Source: Xanthobacter autotrophicus (GTDB lineage Bacteria; Pseudomonadota; Alphaproteobacteria; Rhizobiales; Xanthobacteraceae). From it: DNA of 36,795 bases. The position numbers and the translations under genes are program-made. Each line of letters opens with the position of its first letter. Positions within the stretch are counted from its first letter, which is position 1. Below the pieces are notes generated by a model. It was given only the letters and a program-made list of their open reading frames with translations, was not told the DNA's origin and did not search any database. This document shows positions 10,463 to 33,371 of the stretch, one piece after another. The stretch spans positions 1 to 36,795 of the forward strand of contig NZ_JAIVFN010000034.1 in NCBI RefSeq assembly GCF_030015065.1. Direction: 5' to 3'.

Positions 10463-10795
10463 ATGGCCAATTCTGCCGATCGCATCCAGGACATCATTTC
10501 CTCGAGCGACGTGGTTCTTTTCATGAAAGGCGTGCCCGCCGCGCCGCAGTGCGGCTTTTCCGCCGCCGTGGTGCAGGTGCTCGCGCAGGTGGGGGTGCCC
10601 TATCGCGCGGTCGACGTGCTGCAGGATCCCTTCGTGCGCGAGGGCATCAAGGCCTTCTCCAACTGGCCGACCATTCCCCAGCTCTACATCAAGGGTGAGT
10701 TTGTCGGCGGCTGCGACATCGTGCGCGAGATGTTCCAGGCCGGCGAACTGACCGCCCTGCTCGCCGACAAGGGCGTGACCGCGCCCGCCTCCTGA
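10463..10795 (+). CDS. grxD: Monothiol glutaredoxin Grx4 (CGFS type)
   Basis: This 110-aa protein is a CGFS monothiol glutaredoxin with the active site CGFS at C30-S33, preceded by the MKGVPAAPQ motif. Family glutathione-binding elements [19 protein letters not shown] follow. Such proteins bind a glutathione-ligated [2Fe-2S] cluster as homodimers, or with BolA, and pass it to A-type carriers. Placement after bolA under a NifA-type promoter implies a nitrogen-fixation-induced Fe-S delivery module. GGAG lies upstream of the ATG. Length and motifs are standard. A large hairpin at 10837-10870 closes the transcript. Confidence 0.93.
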
Positions 10796-11102: not shown

Positions 11103-11327
11103 TCAAGCCGCCTTGGCGGTCGCTTCCGTCTTGAACGCGTCCACGGCGGCGCGCGTGAGGCGGAAGACGCCACGGCCACCGGCCAGCGCCTGGTAGCTGT
11201 CGGCGGCCTGATAGGAGAGGAAGTTGAACCAATCCTGGGGGTCGAGCCCCGCGGGACGCTCGCTGATTTCCACGATCGTGCCGTTGGGAGCAAACCGGGC
11301 GTGAATGATAACCGTTTCCGCGTCCAT
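11103..11327 (-). CDS. Hypothetical 74-aa protein
   Basis: This small protein starts MDAETVIIHARFAPNGTIVEI at 11327 with GGAG upstream. An N-terminal beta hairpin (VIIHARFAPNGTIVEISERP) and a helical middle (DPQDWFNFLSYQAADSYQAL) are followed by a basic helix. I do not recognise the family. No cysteine or membrane segment is present. It lies 222 bases downstream of the ferredoxin-like gene with hairpins between, so separate transcription is likely; a convincing sigma54 box was not seen. Confidence 0.6.
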   Translation of the reverse strand: MDAETVIIHARFAPNGTIVEISERPAGLDPQDWFNFLSYQAADSYQALAGGRGVFRLTRAAVDAFKTEATAKAA

Positions 11328-11549: not shown

Positions 11550-11864
11550 TCAGAGGCCGGAGAACTCGCCGAGGAGTTCCACCGTCACGTTCTCGGTGCC
11601 CAGCACCGTGATGTATTTCGCAAGGCGCGACTTCGAGCCAACGCCCACGATCGCGTCGAGCTGCTCGTTCTCTTCACGCGTGGTCTTGGAAAGACCCTTG
11701 CGGCCCTCCTGGATGAAGACGTGGGACGCGCTGCCGTCCTTGTCGGTCTTCTGCCGCTCGGCGAGGCCGGGCTCGACGGTGATGAGTGCTTCGAGGAGGT
11801 TCGTCCCTTCCGCAACCTCGATGGTCTTTCCGGTGGGCAGAACCTTCAGCGTAACCGTGGACAT
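11550..11864 (-). CDS. Ferredoxin-like protein lacking all cluster cysteines
   Basis: The 104-aa protein reads like a plant/adrenodoxin-type [2Fe-2S] ferredoxin: VLPTGKTIEVAEGTNLLEAL is the beta-grasp start and VFIQEGRKGLSKTTREENEQLD matches the region after the cluster loop, followed by VGSKSRLAKYITV where SRLACQ is normal. There is no cysteine anywhere. The cluster loop is EPGLAERQKTDKDGSASHV and the last ligand is Lys, so no classic cluster can bind. The ATG at 11864 has AGGAG 7 bases upstream. It ends the sigma54 operon that starts at 13386, directly after the DegT-fold gene. Confidence 0.75.
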   Translation of the reverse strand: MSTVTLKVLPTGKTIEVAEGTNLLEALITVEPGLAERQKTDKDGSASHVFIQEGRKGLSKTTREENEQLDAIVGVGSKSRLAKYITVLGTENVTVELLGEFSGL

Positions 11865-11917
11865 CAACAACTCCTGTCGTTTCAGCTTTTGTGGTTGGGG
11901 TGCGATATTGTTAGCCT

Positions 11918-13123
11918 TCAGTAGATGGCGGCGCCCGCCCCTACGTTGATCGAGGCATCCTTCATCGTTGCGACGATGAACTCGATTTCTCCCTCGGCGA
12001 GATGCGTGTGGAACGGCAGGGCGATCGCCCGGTCGGCCACTTTTTCAGTCACCAGGAAATCCCCACGGCGATAGCCGAGGTCAAAATAATGGCGCTGCAG
12101 ATGCAGCGGCGCGCTGTAGGCGGCCGACTCAACCTTCTCCACCTTCAGGTCGTCCACGATGGCATCGCGGCTCGACTTGGAAAAGCGGGTACCCAGATGC
12201 ACCACGTAGAGAAACCAGTTCACCTCTGTCACGTCCGGGCCGATGAAGGGATCCTTGATCCCCTCGAAGGACTGGACGTACTTGAGGTAGAGGTGCTCGA
12301 CCGTGCGCCGCTGCTCGAGAATTTCCTCAAGCCGCCTCAATTGGGTCAGGCCGAGCGCCGCGGTCACGTCGCTCATGGCCCCCTGGTAGGGTGCGCTCAT
12401 GGAGACCACCACCGACGAGCGCTCATCCAGGCGATGGGAGCGGAAGCGCCGCAACGCCACGGCCACGTCGATGTCGTCGGTCACCACCATGCCGCCTTCG
12501 CCGCACACGATGGGGAAGGGCTGTGAGAAATCGAACACGGCTGTGTCGCCGAACGACCCAACGAGCCCGCCCTTGTAGCGCGAGCCGATGGCCTCGGTGG
12601 AATCCTCGATGAGCGGCAGGCGGTGCGCCCGCGCCAGGTCCTGGAACGCGGTCCACGGCGCGGGATGCCCGTTGGTGTTGCCCGCGACGATGGCCTTGGT
12701 CTTCTCGGTGATCTTCGCGACCACCTTGTCCGGAACCAGCGTTCCGGCCCAGTAGTCGATATCGGCGAAGACCGGCCGCGCACCGGACAGGCTGACCGCG
12801 TGAACGGTCTCACGGAAGGAATAAGGCGAGCAGATCACCTCGTCGCCCGGCCCGACGCCATAGGCCTTGAGGGCATAGAGCAGCCCCAGCGTGCCGCTCG
12901 GCACCGCAACCGCATATTTACGGCCCAGATAGCCCGCAAACTCCGCCTCGAAGGCCTCCGCCAGCGGCCCGCTCGACAGGCGGGGCGCCTGCATCGCCTC
13001 GGCCACGGCCTGAAGCTCGATCACCGTGATGTCGGGGTCCGACAGCAAGATGGACGTGGCCTCGCCTTCGTCGCCGTCCTCCGCCGGAAAATCGGCGTCG
13101 TCGATGAGATCCATGTCGCTCAT
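11918..13123 (-). CDS. DegT/DnrJ/EryC1 aminotransferase-fold protein without catalytic lysine
   Basis: This 401-aa protein has the DegT sugar-aminotransferase fold. SGTLGLLYALKAYGVGPGDEV is the PLP phosphate region, LIEDSTEAIGSRYKG carries the PLP-contacting Asp, and VVHLG and LPFHTHL lie near the end. The Schiff-base lysine of the usual FSFHxxKNxxxGEGG motif is missing: the sequence is FDFSQPFPIVCGEGG, with Phe203 in place of Lys. A normal transamination is therefore unlikely. The first 30 residues are acidic. The ATG at 13123 overlaps the preceding gene's stop (TGATG), indicating translational coupling. Nothing nearby suggests sugar biosynthesis. Confidence 0.85.
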   Translation of the reverse strand: MSDMDLIDDADFPAEDGDEGEATSILLSDPDITVIELQAVAEAMQAPRLSSGPLAEAFEAEFAGYLGRKYAVAVPSGTLGLLYALKAYGVGPGDEVICSPYSFRETVHAVSLSGARPVFADIDYWAGTLVPDKVVAKITEKTKAIVAGNTNGHPAPWTAFQDLARAHRLPLIEDSTEAIGSRYKGGLVGSFGDTAVFDFSQPFPIVCGEGGMVVTDDIDVAVALRRFRSHRLDERSSVVVSMSAPYQGAMSDVTAALGLTQLRRLEEILEQRRTVEHLYLKYVQSFEGIKDPFIGPDVTEVNWFLYVVHLGTRFSKSSRDAIVDDLKVEKVESAAYSAPLHLQRHYFDLGYRRGDFLVTEKVADRAIALPFHTHLAEGEIEFIVATMKDASINVGAGAAIY

Positions 13124-13386
13124 CACGCGCTCCGCCGGGCGAGAATGACACCGGTGGCGCGCGTGGGATCCAGCGTGATGTGCGCGCAATGGTCGGCGGT
13201 GTCGAGCAGATGGACGTCGAATTGGGAATAGGTGCGGAATGGCGCTTCCGTGACATCGGACGCGTCGCACTGGGTCCACGACAGGGCCGGAAACCGGCGA
13301 CGCAGCTCGGCGAAGACCGGCGTGGACGTATCCTCGGCGGTGAGCACCTTCTCGATCTCCGTGAGGTCGCTGTCGCTCAGGGCCAT
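13123..13386 (-). CDS. Small nif-operon protein (87 aa, possibly DUF6129)
   Basis: An 87-aa protein starts MALSDSDLTEIEKVLTAED at 13386. Helix-rich at first, it then shows LRRRFPALSWTQCDASDV and a C-terminal HLLDTADHCAHITLDPTRATGVILA, which ends like a small ligand-binding or ferredoxin-like fold. It resembles a short family seen in other nif clusters (I recall the name DUF6129, but cannot check it). It is the first gene after a strong -24/-12 promoter and overlaps the DegT-fold gene by one base. The two cysteines and a nearby His are not in a known metal motif. Confidence 0.65.
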   Translation of the reverse strand: MALSDSDLTEIEKVLTAEDTSTPVFAELRRRFPALSWTQCDASDVTEAPFRTYSQFDVHLLDTADHCAHITLDPTRATGVILARRSA

Positions 13387-13453
13387 AACCTTACTCTCCC
13401 TTGCCGAAGATGAGACACGTCCGCGTCTTCTGTCGCGGGCCAAGGAGCCCCAT

Positions 13454-13468
13454 GCAGGATCATTGCCA
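13454..13468 (-). promoter_or_regulatory. Sigma54 promoter of the 87-aa/DegT/ferredoxin-like operon
   Basis: On the minus strand TGGCAA-TGATC-CTGC fits -24/-12 with exact spacing, 68 bases before the ATG at 13386. The -24 segment is duplicated 16 bases upstream at 13474-13486. Confidence 0.82.
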
Positions 13469-13486
13469 AATTAGATCATTGCCAAA
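13458..13486. repeat. Tandem repeat duplicating the -24 element
   Basis: GATCATTGCCAAA occurs at 13458-13470 and again at 13474-13486, a 16-base period. The second copy runs into the 3' end of the DUF3024 gene, whose TGA stop lies within it. Only the first copy has a correctly spaced -12. Confidence 0.8.
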
Positions 13487-13805
13487 ATTTGCGTTCGCTA
13501 TCGTCATTGAGGAGGTCGAGCACCTCCTTCAGCCGCTCGTGGATACTGTCGAGTTCCCACAGCCGGGTGCCGTGGTTCTTGCGGAACAGCTGCCACGCGC
13601 CCTCGTCCGCATCGAACAGCAGGAGCGCGATATCGACGATGCCGCCTTCCGGGTCCACATTGCGCGAGCAGCACGCGCTTTCAATACGATACCCGCCCTC
13701 CGTGGCAAGCACGCGAGGCGTGACATAGCGATAGCGCTTGCGCGCCTTGATGGCGCGCTCGATGCGCTTCTTGTCGAGATCGTTCGGATGAGCGGGCAGC
13801 CTCAT
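13476..13805 (-). CDS. DUF3024 domain protein
   Basis: This 109-aa protein begins MRLPAHPNDLDKKRIERAIK and contains the features of the DUF3024 family: a basic N-terminal helix (ARKRYRYVTPRV), a beta segment GYRIESACCSRNVDP, and a C-terminal acidic helix. Its C-terminus KFWQ stops within the duplicated promoter element. The biochemical function of the family is unknown, but it recurs near nifZ in several proteobacteria. The ATG at 13805 has a GAGACGAG ribosome-like site; the upstream open-frame extension is arginine-rich non-coding sequence. It follows nifZ by 44 bases in the same direction. Confidence 0.75.
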   Translation of the reverse strand: MRLPAHPNDLDKKRIERAIKARKRYRYVTPRVLATEGGYRIESACCSRNVDPEGGIVDIALLLFDADEGAWQLFRKNHGTRLWELDSIHERLKEVLDLLNDDSERKFWQ

Positions 13806-16497: not shown

Positions 16498-18060
16498 TCA
16501 GGCCGCGTTGATGAGGGCGCCTTGACGGATCTCGGCGTCGCCGCGCACCACGTGCTCGATCTCGCCGGTCTTCACCTTGTTGAGGTATTCCTTGAACCAG
16601 GTGATGGCCGACTTCTCGATGAACTCGTGGGCGAACCCGTCCACCGGCTCGATACCGGCCTTGACGAGGTCGGCCTTCGGGCAGCCGCCGATCTTCGCCA
16701 CGAACACCGCATGGCAGTCGTTGATGGCGCGGATGATGGTCTCGAGGCTGTCCTCCTCGCCGTAGCCGCCCTGGCAATACAGGTCGACGCGGCGATGGCC
16801 GACGAACTTGGCGCCGCCGGTGGAGAGCTCCCACACCTGGAACTCCTTGGCGTGGCCGAAGTGCTCGTTGATGAGGCCCGAGCCCTTGGTGGCCACGGCG
16901 ACGAGAAGCTTGATGTCGCTCTGCTCGCCGGCGAGAGCCTCCAGCTCCTCCTGCTTCGCGGCCACCTTGGCCACGCGCTCTTCCTCGACCAGGGCCTGGT
17001 AGGCCTTGCGGCTTTCGAGGTCGTAATTGACCTCCATGGCCATGATCTTGTCGGTGGTGAACTCGGCGGAGCGGTCCTCACCGAGGAGGCCCACCGCGTC
17101 GGCGCGGCACTGGCGGCAGTGGCGCATCATGTTCATCTCGCCCTCGCACTCGTCCTGGAGCGCCTTGAGCTCCTGGGCGGTCGGGCCGCGCTGGCCGTTA
17201 AGGCCGAACACGGTGCCGTGCTCCGGGGAGGAGATGAGCGGCATGATGTTGTGCAGGAACGCGCCGCGGGACTTCACCGCCCGGTTCACTTCAACGAGGT
17301 GCTTGTCGTTGATGCCGGGGATCATCACCGAGTTGACCTTGCAGAGAATGCCACGCTCGGTAAGCATTTCCAGGCCCAGCATCTGCCGGTCGGTGAGGAG
17401 CTTGGCGGCCTCGTAGCCGGTGTAGCGCTTGTGCTTCCAGAACACCCACGGATAGATCTTCGCGCCGACTTCCGGGTCCACCATGTTGATGGTGATGGTC
17501 ACGTGGTCGACGTTGAAGCCGGCGATGGTGTCCACATGGTCGGGCAGGGCCAGGCCGTTGGTGGACAGGCAGAGCTTGATGTCGGGGGCAGTCCGGTTGA
17601 TCAGCTCGAAGGTCTGGAAGGTCTTCTCCGGATTGGCCAGCGGGTCGCCGGGGCCGGCGATGCCAAGCACGGTCATCTGCGGGATGGTGGAGGCGACCGC
17701 GAGCACCTTCTTCGCCGCCTGCTGGGGGCTCAGCTTCTCGGAGACCACGCCGGGGCGGGATTCATTCGCGCAATCATACTTGCGATTGCAGTAGTTGCAC
17801 TGGATGTTGCAGGCGGGCGCGACCGCAACGTGCATACGCGCATAGTGGTGATGGGCTTCTTCACTGTAGCAGGGATGGTTCTTCACCTTTTCCCAGATCT
17901 CGGTGGGCAGGTCGCCCTGGCCGGCGGACGAACCGCAGCTGGCCTTGCCCGAACCACCGGAGGTGCCGCAGCCCTGGTGTTCCGCCTTGGCCTGCATGAC
18001 CTCGGCGAGCTTGTCGGCCATACCGACTTCGGTCGTCTCGTGCTGTGTCGACGCGTGCAT
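16498..18060 (-). CDS. nifB: NifB, FeMo-cofactor core synthase (radical SAM plus NifX-like domain)
   Basis: This 520-aa protein makes NifB-co, the Fe8S9C core of FeMo-co. The radical SAM motif is CNIQCNYC (C84, C88, C91), and HPC with C64 is also conserved. A NifX-like domain runs from about residue 390 ([23 protein letters not shown]) to the end. The start at 18060 is chosen over an upstream one because a sigma54 promoter at 18116-18130 puts the transcript start near 18105, and GAGGAG lies 7 bases upstream. It heads an operon running through fdxN and iscA. The leading 45 residues are Gly/Ser-rich. Confidence 0.98.
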
Positions 18061-18115
18061 GAAACTGCTCCTCGCTTCCAGCAGGATCCTCAAAAAAATC
18101 CTTGGCCCTGGATGA

Positions 18116-18130
18116 GCAACTGGCGTGCCA
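18116..18130 (-). promoter_or_regulatory. Sigma54 promoter of nifB
   Basis: The minus strand reads TGGCAC-GCCAG-TTGC, a perfect -24/-12 consensus. It fixes the nifB start at 18060, since the longer frame would begin almost at the transcription start. Confidence 0.93.
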
Positions 18131-18186: not shown

Positions 18187-18202
18187 TGTAGGCTTGCCAA
18201 CA
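18187..18202. promoter_or_regulatory. NifA site, nifB proximal
   Basis: Exact TGT-N10-ACA, about 60 bases upstream of the -24 box of nifB. Confidence 0.8.
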
Positions 18203-18384: not shown

Positions 18385-19254
18385 TCAGGCGGCCGACGTG
18401 ATGATGTCCACCGCCTTGGGCAGCGCCATGGCGATGGGCGTGATGCCGTGGGTCAGGAGGAAGCGCAGCTCGTTCTTGGTCAGGACCTCTTCGTCCACGA
18501 TGGCGAAGTGCGGCAGGCGGGAACGCTTCGTGATCTGCCGCGCGTAGGTGCGAAGCATCTGGTCGTGGAAGCGGCAGCCGAGGAACAGGAAGCTGCGCTC
18601 GGTACGCCGGTTCTTCACCACGTCGGGGATCGGCGTCTGGATGTCGATCTCGGTCAGAACCTCGACATAGTCGGCGTCGGAGATCAGCCAGTTCTTGGCC
18701 GGCGCGACGCTGCCATGGGGCTTGTAGAGCACGGTCTGCCAGGTCTCCGCCGTGGCGCGGTCGCTCTCCTTGCCGTCGGCGTCGTAGAAGCGGTACCAGC
18801 GATCCTCGCCGATGCCGGCTCGGGTGATGCCCTGCACCTCGCCCCAGCCGGTGCTGCCGGCAAGGGCTGCACGCATGGCCCCGTCATACCAGGTGTCCAC
18901 GATCATCGGCAGCTTGAGGCCGGCGAGGAAGGTGTGGATCGGCAGCGGCGCCACCTCGGGCCCGAAGGCCTCGGCCATGAGCGCCGAAACGGTGTTGCGG
19001 TGCTTCATGCTCTCGATGTGCTGGGCGGCGGTCCAGGCATTGCCCTTGGCCCGCTTGGGCAGCGCCACCTTGGTGCCGAAGAAGACCGAGAGGGCTTCCG
19101 GGGTGGTCGGGATGGCGGGCGGCGACAGATCGAGAAGGCCGGGCCCCAGATAAGGCACGACCTTGCCCGCAACGAGCTCCGCCGCCACGTCCTTCAGGAC
19201 GGCTTCGGCGTCGGCGAGCTTCAGCGTCTCAATATTGGCGACGGAAATATTCAT
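18385..19254 (-). CDS. SIR2-like family protein in the nif operon
   Basis: This 289-aa protein resembles the SIR2-like (SIR2_2) family. [12 protein letters not shown] is the Rossmann start with a changed Gly-rich motif, TWYDGAM and YKPHGSV mark the NAD-binding region, and [14 protein letters not shown] corresponds to the conserved FLGxSxxD end. Classic sirtuins deacylate lysine with NAD; defence-type SIR2 proteins hydrolyse NAD. Here it follows nifT by six bases, its ribosome site lying inside nifT, so a nif-related role is likely but unproven. It may be a nucleotide sensor. It ends with a good terminator at 18332. Confidence 0.75.
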
Positions 19255-19648: not shown

Positions 19649-19684
19649 ATCCGGGTGCGAGGCTAGATCCGGGTGCGAGGCTAG
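19649..19684. repeat. Perfect 18-base tandem duplication at the nifS 3' end
   Basis: ATCCGGGTGCGAGGCTAG occurs twice in a row (19649-19666 and 19667-19684). The second copy includes the nifS stop codon, so nifS is followed by a second in-frame TAG 18 bases later. Confidence 0.9.
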
Positions 19685-20901
19685 ACATGGCCGGCCACGG
19701 GCGCGCCTTCCGCACCCTCCCGCCCGAGCCAGGCCGGCGACATGGCGCGCAGGCGCGAGACGATCTCCGGCAACGCCTCCAGCACCCGGTCCACATCCTC
19801 GCCGGTATTCTCACGGGAGAGCGAGAGGCGCAGCGCGCCGTGCAGCGCCGTGGACGGCAGGTTCATCGCCCGCAGCACGTGGGACGGCTCGGTGGAGCCG
19901 GAGGTGCAGGCGGAACCCGTGGAGGCGGCGATGCCGACCTTGTTGAGATTATGCAGCACCGCCTCGCCGTCCAGATATTCGAACGCGATGTTGGCGGTGT
20001 TCGGCAGGCGGTTGTCGGCGTCGCCGTTGAGCAGCGCGTGGCTCACCTGCTGGAGGATGCCCTGCTCGAGCCGGTCGCGCAACGCCTTCACCCGGGTGCG
20101 CTCTTCCTCCATGTGCTGGAGTGCCAGCTCGGCGGCCATCCCGAGGCCAATGATCGCGGGCACGTTCTCGGTGCCGCCGCGCCGCCCGCGCTCCTGGTGG
20201 CCGCCGCGGACCAGCGGGCGGAACTTCACGCCCTTCTTCACATAAAGCGCGCCGATACCCTTCGGTCCGTGCAGCTTGTGGCCCGACAGGGACAGCATGT
20301 CGATGGCGGTCGACTTCAGGTCGATGGCGACCTTGCCCGCCGCCTGCACCGCATCGGTATGGAACAGCGCACCGGCCTGGTGCGCCAGCTCGGCCAGCTC
20401 GGCGACGGGGAACAGGGTTCCGGTCTCGTTGTTGGCCCACATGACCGAGGCGAGCGCGGTCTTCGGCGACAGCGCGCCGGCATAGGCGTCCATGTCCAGC
20501 CGGCCGTTGCGATCGACGCCGATCAGATGGACCTTGATGCCGCGCGTTTTCTCGAGATGCGCCACGAGGGTGAGAATCGCCGGATGCTCCACCGTGGTGG
20601 TGACGATCTCGTCCCGCCCCTCCTGCACCTCCAGCGCCGAAAGGATGGCCGCATTGTCGGCTTCCGTCCCGCCGGAGGTGTAGATGATCTCGTGGTCGAA
20701 GGCGGCACCAAGCAGGGCCTGGAGCTGCTTGCGCGCAGCCTTGACCGCCTCCCCGACCTTCTCGCCGAAGGCGTGTGTCGAGGAGGCGTTGCCGAAATGC
20801 TCGGAGAAGAACGGCAACATGGCCTCGACCACAGCAGGGTCGGTCCGTGTCGTCGCGTTGTTGTCGAGATAGACAGGCCGCACGGCAGCACCCCCTGGCA
20901 T
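19681..20901 (-). CDS. nifS: NifS, cysteine desulfurase
   Basis: The 406-aa PLP enzyme removes sulfur from cysteine for nitrogenase Fe-S clusters. Seen are YLDNNATTRTDP at the start, H106 in VEHPA, the PLP lysine K209 in SGHKLHGPKG, and the persulfide-forming Cys332 in STGSACTSGS. Length agrees with NifS/IscS. It follows the nfu-only nifU by 23 bases and probably continues into nifT and the SIR2-like gene. The C-terminal tail (EGAEGAPVAGHV) is extended relative to the core. The alternate upstream start is less likely. Confidence 0.97.
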   Translation of the reverse strand: MPGGAAVRPVYLDNNATTRTDPAVVEAMLPFFSEHFGNASSTHAFGEKVGEAVKAARKQLQALLGAAFDHEIIYTSGGTEADNAAILSALEVQEGRDEIVTTTVEHPAILTLVAHLEKTRGIKVHLIGVDRNGRLDMDAYAGALSPKTALASVMWANNETGTLFPVAELAELAHQAGALFHTDAVQAAGKVAIDLKSTAIDMLSLSGHKLHGPKGIGALYVKKGVKFRPLVRGGHQERGRRGGTENVPAIIGLGMAAELALQHMEEERTRVKALRDRLEQGILQQVSHALLNGDADNRLPNTANIAFEYLDGEAVLHNLNKVGIAASTGSACTSGSTEPSHVLRAMNLPSTALHGALRLSLSRENTGEDVDRVLEALPEIVSRLRAMSPAWLGREGAEGAPVAGHV

Positions 20902-31407: not shown

Positions 31408-33306
31408 CTATTCCGCTGCCACGAGGGTGGCGGGCACACTGGTAGACGCCGCGGCATCCAGCATCTCCTCAATGCGCTCGGCGCAACCGCCGCAGCCGCT
31501 GGAGGCCTTGGTCTGCGCCTTCACATCGGCGAGATTGCTCGCGCCGGCGTGGATGGCATCCTCGATGGCGCCTACATCCACGCTCTTGCAATTGCACACT
31601 TTCTTGGCCCGCCGCTTGGCTTCCGCCGCGATCGGGTCGAGCTCGGGCTCTTCCGCGGGGACAAGACCCCTGGCCTCGAAGATCTCCTCAATCCGCACGC
31701 TGCATGCGCCGCAACCACCGGACGCATTGGTATGCGTGCGCACCCCCTCCACCGTGGTGAGGCCGTGGGCCGCGATGGCATCCTCGATGGTGCCGAGGTC
31801 CACGCTCTTGCAGTTGCAGATCTTCTTGGAGCGCCGGGCCTTTTCGGCCGCCACCGGATCAGCGGCAAGGGCGGCGGCTTCCGCCTCCATCTCGGCGATG
31901 GCGCGGTTCTGCCAGTTGTTGGCGGGATTGTCCCACGGGGCGGGCTTGCGCACCTGTTCCCAGATGGGGTTGTAGAGCGCCTTGTCAATCTCCTCGACCA
32001 GCTTCACCATGCCCACATAGCCCATATAGGCGTGGTGGCGCTCCTGGTTGATGTCGAGCCACGGCATGGCCGCTTTCAGGGCGATGAACTGCGAGCGGCC
32101 GCCCGAGAGCATGATGTCGGCCTTCGCGTCCTTCAGCATCTTGTACATTTCGCGGGGCGTCATGTCGTCGATCATGTGGGCGTCCTGCCCCATGAGCTCC
32201 TTGATGCGCTCCTTGTCCTCCTTGGTGGACTTCTTGACGGAGGTACCCACCAGCTCGAGACCCGCCTCCTGCAACGCGGCCACCACCGACCAGGACTTCA
32301 CGCCGCCGGTGATGAGCAGCACCTTCTTGTCCTTGAAGCGGGGCTTGTACTTGGCGATCGCCGCCCAGGCCCTCGCCTCCTCGCGCTCGATGATGGCTTC
32401 GGTCCGGTCCATCAGTTCCGGGTCGGCGCCGCGCTCGATGAGCATGCGGGCGATCTCGCGGAGGGAATCGGAGGAGTCCTGGATGCCGTAGAACGAGCCC
32501 TCGAAGAAGGGAATGTCGTAGCGCTCCTCCATCTTACGGGCCACGTTGATCATGGCCTTGGAGCACACCATCATCGCCGCCTTGGCGCGATGGGAGGCGG
32601 CCACGTCCTTGTAGCGGCCGTCACCCGAGATGCAGGCGAGGATGCGGATGCCGAGCTCGTCGAGCAGCGGCTTCACCTGCCACAGCTCTCCGGAAAGATT
32701 GTATTCACCGATGATGTTGATGTCGTAGGGCGTCGTGTATTCGGGCTCTTCGGTGCCGATGACGTGCTGGAGGATAGCCTCGCCGGCAAGCTTGTTGCCC
32801 AGATTCTTCGGACCCACGAAGCCGGGAGAGTTCACCGGGATCACCGGCGTTCCGAACTTCTCCTTGGCCGCCTTGCAAACCGCGTCGATGTCATCGCCGA
32901 TCATGGCGGGCACGCAGGTCTGATAGACGAAGACGGCGGGCGGGTTGTACTTCTCGATGATTTCCTTGATCGACTTGAACAGACGCTTCTCACCGCCGAA
33001 CACCACATCGGTCTCGTTGATATCGGTGGTGAAGCCGGTGCGCCAGATCTGCGAGCCGGACGATTTCGCGCCGCGATTGTCCCAGCTGTTGCCCTCGCAG
33101 GCGATGGGGCCATGGACGAGATGAGCCACGTCGGTCAAAGGCTGCAGGGCGATCTTTGCCCCGTCGAAGGCACAGCCGCCGGCAGCGCCGCCGGGCTGGA
33201 GCTGCTTGGTGCACCCTTTTTTCTTTTCCGCCTCCGATTTGTTCTGGTTCTTCGCGCAGCCGGGCTCGTTGAAGACTTCCTGGATCGTGGCGGAAACCGA
33301 GCTCAT
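31408..33306 (-). CDS. nifE: NifE with two C-terminal BFD-type [2Fe-2S] domains
   Basis: The 632-aa protein is the alpha subunit of NifEN. The core (about 1-470) shows GCAFDGA (C45), GPIACEGNSWD (C70) and a QTCVPAM cysteine. Beyond it lie two repeats of a bacterioferritin-associated-ferredoxin fold: CNCKSVDLGTIEDAI ... GGCGACSV (C497, C499, C532, C535) and CNCKSVDVGAIEDAI ... SGCGGCAE (C571, C573, C605, C608). Each has C-x-C-x31/32-C-x2-C, like the central [2Fe-2S] site of NifU. The ATG at 33306 has AAGGAGAG upstream; a TTG at 33324 is less likely. Ordinary NifE is about 475 aa. Confidence 0.97.
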   Translation of the reverse strand: MSSVSATIQEVFNEPGCAKNQNKSEAEKKKGCTKQLQPGGAAGGCAFDGAKIALQPLTDVAHLVHGPIACEGNSWDNRGAKSSGSQIWRTGFTTDINETDVVFGGEKRLFKSIKEIIEKYNPPAVFVYQTCVPAMIGDDIDAVCKAAKEKFGTPVIPVNSPGFVGPKNLGNKLAGEAILQHVIGTEEPEYTTPYDINIIGEYNLSGELWQVKPLLDELGIRILACISGDGRYKDVAASHRAKAAMMVCSKAMINVARKMEERYDIPFFEGSFYGIQDSSDSLREIARMLIERGADPELMDRTEAIIEREEARAWAAIAKYKPRFKDKKVLLITGGVKSWSVVAALQEAGLELVGTSVKKSTKEDKERIKELMGQDAHMIDDMTPREMYKMLKDAKADIMLSGGRSQFIALKAAMPWLDINQERHHAYMGYVGMVKLVEEIDKALYNPIWEQVRKPAPWDNPANNWQNRAIAEMEAEAAALAADPVAAEKARRSKKICNCKSVDLGTIEDAIAAHGLTTVEGVRTHTNASGGCGACSVRIEEIFEARGLVPAEEPELDPIAAEAKRRAKKVCNCKSVDVGAIEDAIHAGASNLADVKAQTKASSGCGGCAERIEEMLDAAASTSVPATLVAAE

Positions 33307-33371
33307 GGATCTCTCCTTCGACAAGCGGGCTGTGTAAAGATCAGAACTTCCGAAAGGGGCAGGCTCCCGTT

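Follow-up and report, generated by a model that had tools for sequence, protein, structure and literature searches.

DegT-family sugar aminotransferases are dimer-forming fold-type I enzymes, and the fold of two of them, GDP-perosamine synthase and ArnB, is shared over its whole length by a protein encoded among the nitrogen fixation (nif) genes of Xanthobacter autotrophicus, which differs from them in lacking the Schiff-base lysine. Its gene and a neighbor encoding a cysteine-free iron-sulfur cluster (ISC)-type ferredoxin fold belong to a set of four in the 36,795 nt stretch of contig NZ_JAIVFN010000034.1 analyzed here (the window). For the ferredoxin, a described parallel is plant mFDX-like/C1-FDX, a mitochondrial-type protein that progressively lost its ligands and became a structural subunit of complex I (PMC10069907). 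The window protein is similar in ligand loss, retained fold and selection, but differs in lineage, host complex and organisms, and so is an analogue rather than a fellow member.

Genes of this kind are already in print as encoding an aminotransferase: BRADO5411 (DegT aminotransferase) and BRADO5410 (2Fe-2S ferredoxin) are listed with NifZ and LRV genes next to them among those found only in Nod-independent strains (PMC3899966, Table 3). The parts of that paper available mention neither the missing lysine nor a cysteine-free branch. They describe BRADO5414, 5416, 5418 and 5424, without naming 5410 or 5411, as an operon conserved in A. caulinodans, and report the cluster as up-regulated in stem-nodule bacteroids of that species. 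BRADO5410 and 5411 are equated with the genes discussed here by name and position only, the sequences compared being those of BTAi1 (L044) rather than ORS278. No functional study of a nif-linked DegT protein was found in the literature searched, where the one mention, at annotation level, was that in PMC3899966; the available parts of PMC3912193, PMC9769520, PMC3916325 and PMC7341956 do not name the family. The features of main concern in the window are the following.

13123–13386, minus strand: DUF6129-like gene (87 amino acids, aa), first in transcription order
11918–13123, minus strand: DegT/DnrJ/EryC1/StrS-fold pseudo-aminotransferase gene (401 aa), second (Pfam PF01041, E 1e-86)
12530–12532, minus strand: D198 codon of the DegT-fold gene, Ser in canonical members
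12515–12517, minus strand: F203 codon, at the site of the pyridoxal 5'-phosphate (PLP) lysine
11550–11864, minus strand: cysteine-free ISC-type ferredoxin-fold gene (104 aa), third (NCBIfam fdx_isc, E 1e-9)
11616–11753, minus strand: former cluster-ligand span of that gene (residues 38 Q, 44 G, 47 S, 83 K)
11103–11327, minus strand: conserved gene for a 74-aa protein, fourth member of the set

A first-pass annotation of this DNA had reported phenylalanine in place of the DegT lysine, a ferredoxin-like protein without its four cluster cysteines, and a one-base overlap between the genes for the 87-aa and DegT-like proteins (TGATG at 13123). All of these were confirmed; the 74-aa gene had been overlooked. 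Both residue losses are real and not due to chance. The interpretation preferred here, which is given about an even chance of being right, is that the four genes form a nif metal-cluster assembly module whose Xanthobacter ferredoxin has become a redox-dead adaptor.

In the DegT-like protein, F203 aligns with K186 of perosamine synthetase with no gap in the motif, and the frame is intact in many species, which rules out an annotation artifact or frameshift. Lysine is found at this site in none of 102 aligned orthologue rows (G39 S30 F22 L7 M2 A1 Q1) and in none of the 80 named loci. The rows contain same-species repeats; the 91 distinct ones give much the same picture (G38 S26 F16 L7 M2 A1 Q1, with Lys 0/91). 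The canonical comparison set, which is not a balanced sample but consists of 24 next-best matches fetched as loci and two paralogues from the same genome, has lysine in 26 of 26. Position 198 is likewise divided, with Asp in all 102 family rows and Ser, which is taken to be the PLP phosphate-binding residue, in all 26 canonical sequences.

Changes elsewhere in the pocket follow a similar pattern. At least 101 of the 102 rows share N149, S175, E177, D198 and R235, while the canonical set nearly always differs (S175 in 1/26, E177 in 2/26); E177 and R235 are fixed throughout the family (102/102) but vary among canonical members. At 37 of the 48 columns where at least 85% of canonical sequences agree, the family has the same majority residue. 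The 11 changed ones include V148 (to small residues), H149 (to N), A175 (to S), A176 (to T/S), S198 (to D), the lost K203, G231 (to R/K) and G245 (to P, in 87/102), with mild changes at 283, 383 and 386. Seven of the 11 presumably fall in motifs forming the cofactor site, and those at 149, 175, 198 and 245 also distinguish the window protein from GDP-perosamine synthase and ArnB. (Loci L133–L148 and L001 were omitted as repeats from this column comparison and from the cysteine count below.) The predicted structure has a normal fold (mean predicted local distance difference test score, pLDDT, 86.9), with a Foldseek match to GDP-perosamine synthase 3bn1 (template modeling scores 0.85/0.93, E 8.3e-37, 32% identity). 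Across an even phylum-wide sample of 398 genomes, with at most four candidates scored per genome, bit scores for the family are bimodal: six members, the source genome's own included, score at least 419 bits, and the next best 219. Because lysine is absent from all 102 rows and the PLP pocket is rewritten with new fixed residues, the alignment identifies this as an old, re-specialized family of putative pseudo-transaminases. The pocket looks like a rewritten site rather than the product of random decay, and the protein is predicted to have lost PLP catalysis.

These proteins could instead be lysine-less cofactor enzymes resembling the pyridoxamine 5'-phosphate-dependent dehydrases ColD and E1, with the ferredoxin as electron donor. 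ColD and E1 are DegT enzymes without the lysine, E1 works with an iron-sulfur partner, and both structures are among the DegT matches; D174 is kept in 102 of 102 rows and T78 in 93, and most ferredoxin partners have four cysteines (65/98). ColD and E1, however, have histidine at the lysine site, which none of the 102 rows has, and membership of the ColD/E1 type was ruled out on these grounds. Since the residue at site 203 varies among G, S, F, L, M, A and Q, and is never histidine, it is unlikely to be a catalytic base. Replacement of Ser198 by Asp throughout also argues against such an enzyme, as does the retention of the DegT protein in Xanthobacter alongside a ferredoxin without any plant-type cluster ligand, and the reading is considered quite improbable.

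The ferredoxin-like protein has no cysteine among its 104 residues. It scores 38.5 bits against fdx_isc (TIGR02007), under the cut-off of 132.1, and has no match to Fer2 (PF00111), which matches 32 of 43 family members scanned. The best match of the family profile in the PDB is E. coli Fdx (1i7h, E 4.9e-15), with P. putida FdxB (3ah7) also among the best, and the window model (pLDDT 80.5) resembles R. capsulatus FdC (9i2a) and ISC ferredoxins. In comparison with these [2Fe-2S] proteins it retains the helix F segment and lacks the cysteines; its four-cysteine orthologues may be cluster proteins of the usual kind. The former ligand span takes in the helix F segment (residues 63–82), which is conserved, and most of the rewritten loop. 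When 11 cysteine-free Xanthobacter sequences were compared with 65 four-cysteine relatives, identity was 12% in the cluster loop (residues 32–49) and 82% in the helix F segment (80% within the four-cysteine set), with 41% in the N-terminal part, 69% in residues 50–62 and 56% in the C-terminal part. Within the 11, the rewritten loop is 80% conserved and helix F 90%. Loss of the ligands predicts that the Xanthobacter protein holds no cluster. As a side observation, a D-K-D-G string occurs in the former cluster loop of all 20 cysteine-free Xanthobacter rows and resembles the acidic loops that bind metals.

The ferredoxin model also has distant matches to the structures of the Shethna protein FeSII and of a MoFe:Fe:FeSII complex. 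Xanthobacter is an aerobic diazotroph, and the set could be an oxygen-protection module in which the ferredoxin fold binds nitrogenase as FeSII does, helped by the DegT protein. The FeSII matches are weak (ranks 38–48, E at least 1.5e-3), behind FdC and ISC-type ferredoxins. FeSII acts through the redox state of its own cluster, which the window protein is predicted to lack, and the gene context is that of cofactor assembly rather than of nifHDK. A protective role of this kind seems very unlikely.

The two losses differ in age. All rows of the orthologue alignment lack the lysine, while cysteines are intact in close relatives: three sister genera possessing the ferredoxin gene have all four, as do 65 of 98 ferredoxin loci (a count that includes repeats; the DegT protein tree has 86 rows with a scored ferredoxin, 64 of them of this type). 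Xanthobacter ferredoxins carry three, two or no ligand cysteines, and the cysteine-free state is found only there. A separate loss has left one cysteine in four Methylocystis-type loci, and altered sets occur in Roseibium marinum, Methylocapsa acidiphila, Beijerinckia mobilis, the alphaproteobacterial locus L106 and a fragment at L104. Some of these proteins, such as that of Methylocapsa with five cysteines, could retain a cluster. The DegT protein tree, a quick tree with many weak forks from which repeats and L020 (a DegT frame break) were omitted, requires the cysteine state to change at least six times. The differing depth of the losses rules out recent joint decay of both proteins: the pair did not degenerate together, the lysine loss being family-wide (0/102) and the cysteine loss late and lineage-limited. 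Intact residues in close relatives had been named by the first-pass annotation as grounds for refuting its reading, and for the ferredoxin cysteines such relatives exist. A compensating four-cysteine copy in Xanthobacter was also considered and rejected: same-genus genomes have a single match each, and four named genomes searched gave only weak extra matches (E 7e-9 or worse). Methylocystis isolate B8 has only a one-cysteine copy and weak matches, and B. mobilis has a second, five-cysteine ferredoxin with no DegT match within 3.3 kb around it.

Selection was estimated as Nei-Gojobori pairwise medians of the ratio of nonsynonymous to synonymous substitution rates (dN/dS), with no formal test, from 12 cysteine-free Xanthobacter sequences (66 pairs per module gene). 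It is purifying, with medians of 0.153 for the ferredoxin (maximum 0.403), 0.139 for DegT and 0.188 for DUF6129; comparison genes gave 0.048 (nifZ1), 0.049 (fdxN) and 0.227 (lrv) from 33–36 pairs. Ferredoxin medians are 0.073, 0.038 and 0.117 in three four-cysteine groups and 0.183, from five pairs only, in the one-cysteine Methylocystis group. The Xanthobacter ferredoxin might merely be decaying, leaving DegT and DUF6129 as the functional parts. Such decay would fit the graded loss of cysteines (3, 2, 0) and a dN/dS above that of the four-cysteine groups, and is real elsewhere (Bradyrhizobium macuxiense and the L104 fragment, below). Against it, the frame is intact in all 12 sequences compared, dN/dS has a median of 0.153 and a maximum of 0.403, and the rewritten loop and helix F are conserved within the cysteine-free group. 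Simple decay of the ferredoxin is judged improbable, and repurposing, as first proposed on the strength of the intact frames, is the better fit. The normal codon use also cited at that stage stands only as GC content at third codon positions, 0.85–0.86 for the three genes first described and 0.87–0.91 for nifB, nifS and nifDKEN.

The association with nitrogen fixation was followed in two profile surveys. Among 81 relatives, 28 have nifN, and the DegT family was found in 17 of these and in none of the other 53. In the phylum sample of 398 genomes it was found in 6 of 41 nifN-positive genomes and none of 357 others. Together the matches come from 22 distinct genomes, every one nifN-positive; the survey counts are not corrected for genome relatedness. 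Of the 81 relatives, 20 have DUF6129 and 19 the 74-aa protein, every one of them nifN-positive; the ferredoxin was found in the same 17 genomes as DegT, and a further, weak match (E 8e-4) comes from a genome without nifN. Synteny was scored in 80 named loci, the number retained from 230 relatives by a locus scan biased to family members, as one of the two patterns used is located immediately ahead of the lysine site; the profile surveys are free of this bias. The complete four-gene set is present in 75 of the 80, and two of the five loci without it end 72 and 333 bp after DegT. A nifS homologue lies at most 2.6 kb before DegT in 14 of the 80 (L080, L081, L085, L087, L088, L092, L094–L098, L100, L101 and L103), chiefly beta- and gammaproteobacterial loci plus Methylocapsa and Beijerinckia, and directly before DUF6129 in the three of these that were resolved (L080, L085 and L088). 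It is this gene context alone that suggests a possible role in nitrogenase assembly.

The DUF6129-like protein has five residues, C40, D41, D44, H66 and C67 (C-D-x2-D ... H-C), that do not vary in any of the 21 aligned orthologues and might form a site for a metal or persulfide. Its assignment rests on PF19624, which it approaches with 21.2 bits (cut-off 23.6) and which matches 16 of the 21 at E of 0.01 or better (best 6.5e-8). The 74-aa protein has no Pfam or NCBIfam assignment, and a sequence-based structure search with the two proteins returned chance-level matches only. A more distant second match to the 74-aa protein is present in the source genome (G000:C26:31042-31230, E 2.8e-16) and in several relatives.

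The invariant residues would also suit a metal-ion or small-ligand carrier in which the DUF6129 protein is chemically active and DegT and the ferredoxin fold are its scaffold. Three nif genomes contain DUF6129 but no DegT, and in one of these the 74-aa gene lies about 160 bp away from it. Metal binding, however, has no backing from any known structure or homologue, and a carrier function is regarded as possible but unlikely.

In the preferred interpretation, the DUF6129, pseudo-DegT, ISC-type ferredoxin and 74-aa proteins would make up a module joined to the nif cluster at its nifB/nifZ end. The Schiff-base lysine would have been lost before the known members of the DegT family diverged, the pocket being refitted with new fixed polar residues, and the protein would most likely serve as a fold-type I docking platform or bind another small ligand. 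Its ancestral ferredoxin partner would have held a [2Fe-2S] cluster and been able to deliver electrons. Loss of cluster ligands with retention of the docking helix, once in Xanthobacter and independently in one Methylocystis group, would have left a putative redox-dead adaptor or regulator in metal-cluster assembly. A physical complex of the two proteins is plausible in this context. FDX2 binds NFS1 through its helix F surface (PMC11618653), and a more specific proposal is that the DegT-ferredoxin pair mimics a cysteine desulfurase-ferredoxin complex, with a dead fold-type I protein holding, or competing for, an ISC-type ferredoxin and so setting the supply of sulfur and electrons in cluster assembly by NifS, NifU and NifB. 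The mimicry would be two-sided in Xanthobacter and the one Methylocystis group, where neither partner would be capable of the original chemistry. It is rated as rather unlikely.

Several observations weigh against the module interpretation. Eleven of the 28 nifN-positive relatives have no DegT protein, so it is dispensable for fixation in general, and DUF6129 is present without DegT in the three nif genomes noted above. Ferredoxin dN/dS is higher in the cysteine-free and one-cysteine groups than in any four-cysteine group, so that selection, while purifying, is somewhat weaker after cysteine loss and some relaxation is possible. In three loci of one Bradyrhizobium group no intact ferredoxin gene accompanies an intact DegT gene: in B. 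macuxiense (L076) a broken match with two in-frame stops lies about 100 bp past DegT, L104 has the fragment beside DegT, and L045, a metagenome-assembled genome, has no ferredoxin near DegT and only weak matches elsewhere. Their tree neighbors L057 and L058 retain four cysteines. Because DegT persists in these three loci, the pair is separable and the ferredoxin dispensable there. One Methylocystis metagenome-assembled genome holds a second, four-cysteine module besides its one-cysteine module. Finally, lysine-to-alanine mutants of DegT enzymes still crystallize with PLP or a sugar ligand (titles of 3dr4, 4oca and 3nys), so the lysine-less protein might still bind a cofactor. Purifying selection on the two proteins despite their losses favors the repurposing first suggested; the case for an obligate complex is weakened by the three Bradyrhizobium-group loci.

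Engineering of nitrogen fixation in crops or yeast requires a full list of helper proteins, and a nif-linked pseudoenzyme annotated as an aminotransferase would be mis-modeled as metabolism. The stepwise ligand loss within one genus, repeated elsewhere, gives a natural series in which docking could be told apart from electron transfer in metal-cluster assembly.

The nearest named relatives of the locus are Xanthobacter species. Upstream of the module lie genes for a DUF3024 protein, two NifZ, an LRV iron-sulfur protein, an IscA-like protein and a 4Fe-4S ferredoxin, and beyond these nifB, nifS, nifN, NifE-BFD, nifK and nifD. Features in this region and at the other end of the module include:

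10463–10795, plus strand: Grx4-family monothiol glutaredoxin gene (TIGR00365), facing the end of the module
13453–13468, minus strand: sigma54-like -24/-12 element TGGCAATGATCCTGCA, upstream of the DUF6129-like gene
13476–13805, minus strand: DUF3024 gene, directly upstream of the DUF6129-like gene
16498–18093, minus strand: nifB, upstream in the same gene run (TIGR01290, 683.5 bits, cut-off 343.65)
18385–19254: SIR2-like domain protein between nifB and nifS (PF13289, E 2.4e-25)
19681–20901, minus strand: nifS (TIGR03402, 614.1 bits, cut-off 530.75)
about 30.1–31.4 kb: nifN
31408–33324: NifE with a C-terminal BFD-like [2Fe-2S] domain

The first-pass annotation placed the genes behind an independent, NifA-regulated -24/-12 promoter. 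The element is present, but a similar string was found in only 14 of 79 relatives, and in 13 of the 79 no more than 5% of random stretches from the relative's own locus match the best site. A loose form of the pattern occurs six times in the window, where 0.33 are expected. A similar string (TGGCAATGA, two bases, TTGCA) in several other genera coincides with the final codons of DUF3024 (W, Q, stop), so part of its conservation is that of coding sequence. The window has a short direct repeat (TTTGGCAATGATC) at 13453–13486, of which one copy falls at the stop of DUF3024 and the other lies free within the -24/-12 element; the free copy is found in the window and the nearest Xanthobacter relatives. 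The TGT-N10-ACA motif, presumably the NifA upstream site consensus, is absent from the 350 bp upstream of the DUF6129 start in the window and present in 6 of the 79 relatives. With no adjacent NifA site in the window and no sigma54-like element in most relatives tested, an independent NifA promoter was rejected as a general feature. The closest place with a clear sigma54/NifA arrangement is the region upstream of nifB, which has a -24/-12 pattern at 18115–18130 and TGT-N10-ACA at 18187, 18225 and 18339. In Bradyrhizobium BTAi1 and Nitrospirillum, fewer than 20 bp separate the DUF3024 and DUF6129-like genes. The module may be transcribed together with nifB and, in some lineages, also from an extra sigma54 promoter.

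Some published loci may be related. In Azoarcus BH72 (azo3366–azo3368), a NifA-dependent 2Fe-2S ferredoxin gene, fer22, lies beside nifZ outside the main nif cluster (PMC3916325). Conserved hypothetical genes 2, 5 and 6 of PMC3169532 are shared with BTAi1 and could be genes of the module. The same paper reports the BFD domain on NifE for Bradyrhizobium, Xanthobacter and Azorhizobium, as found in the window.

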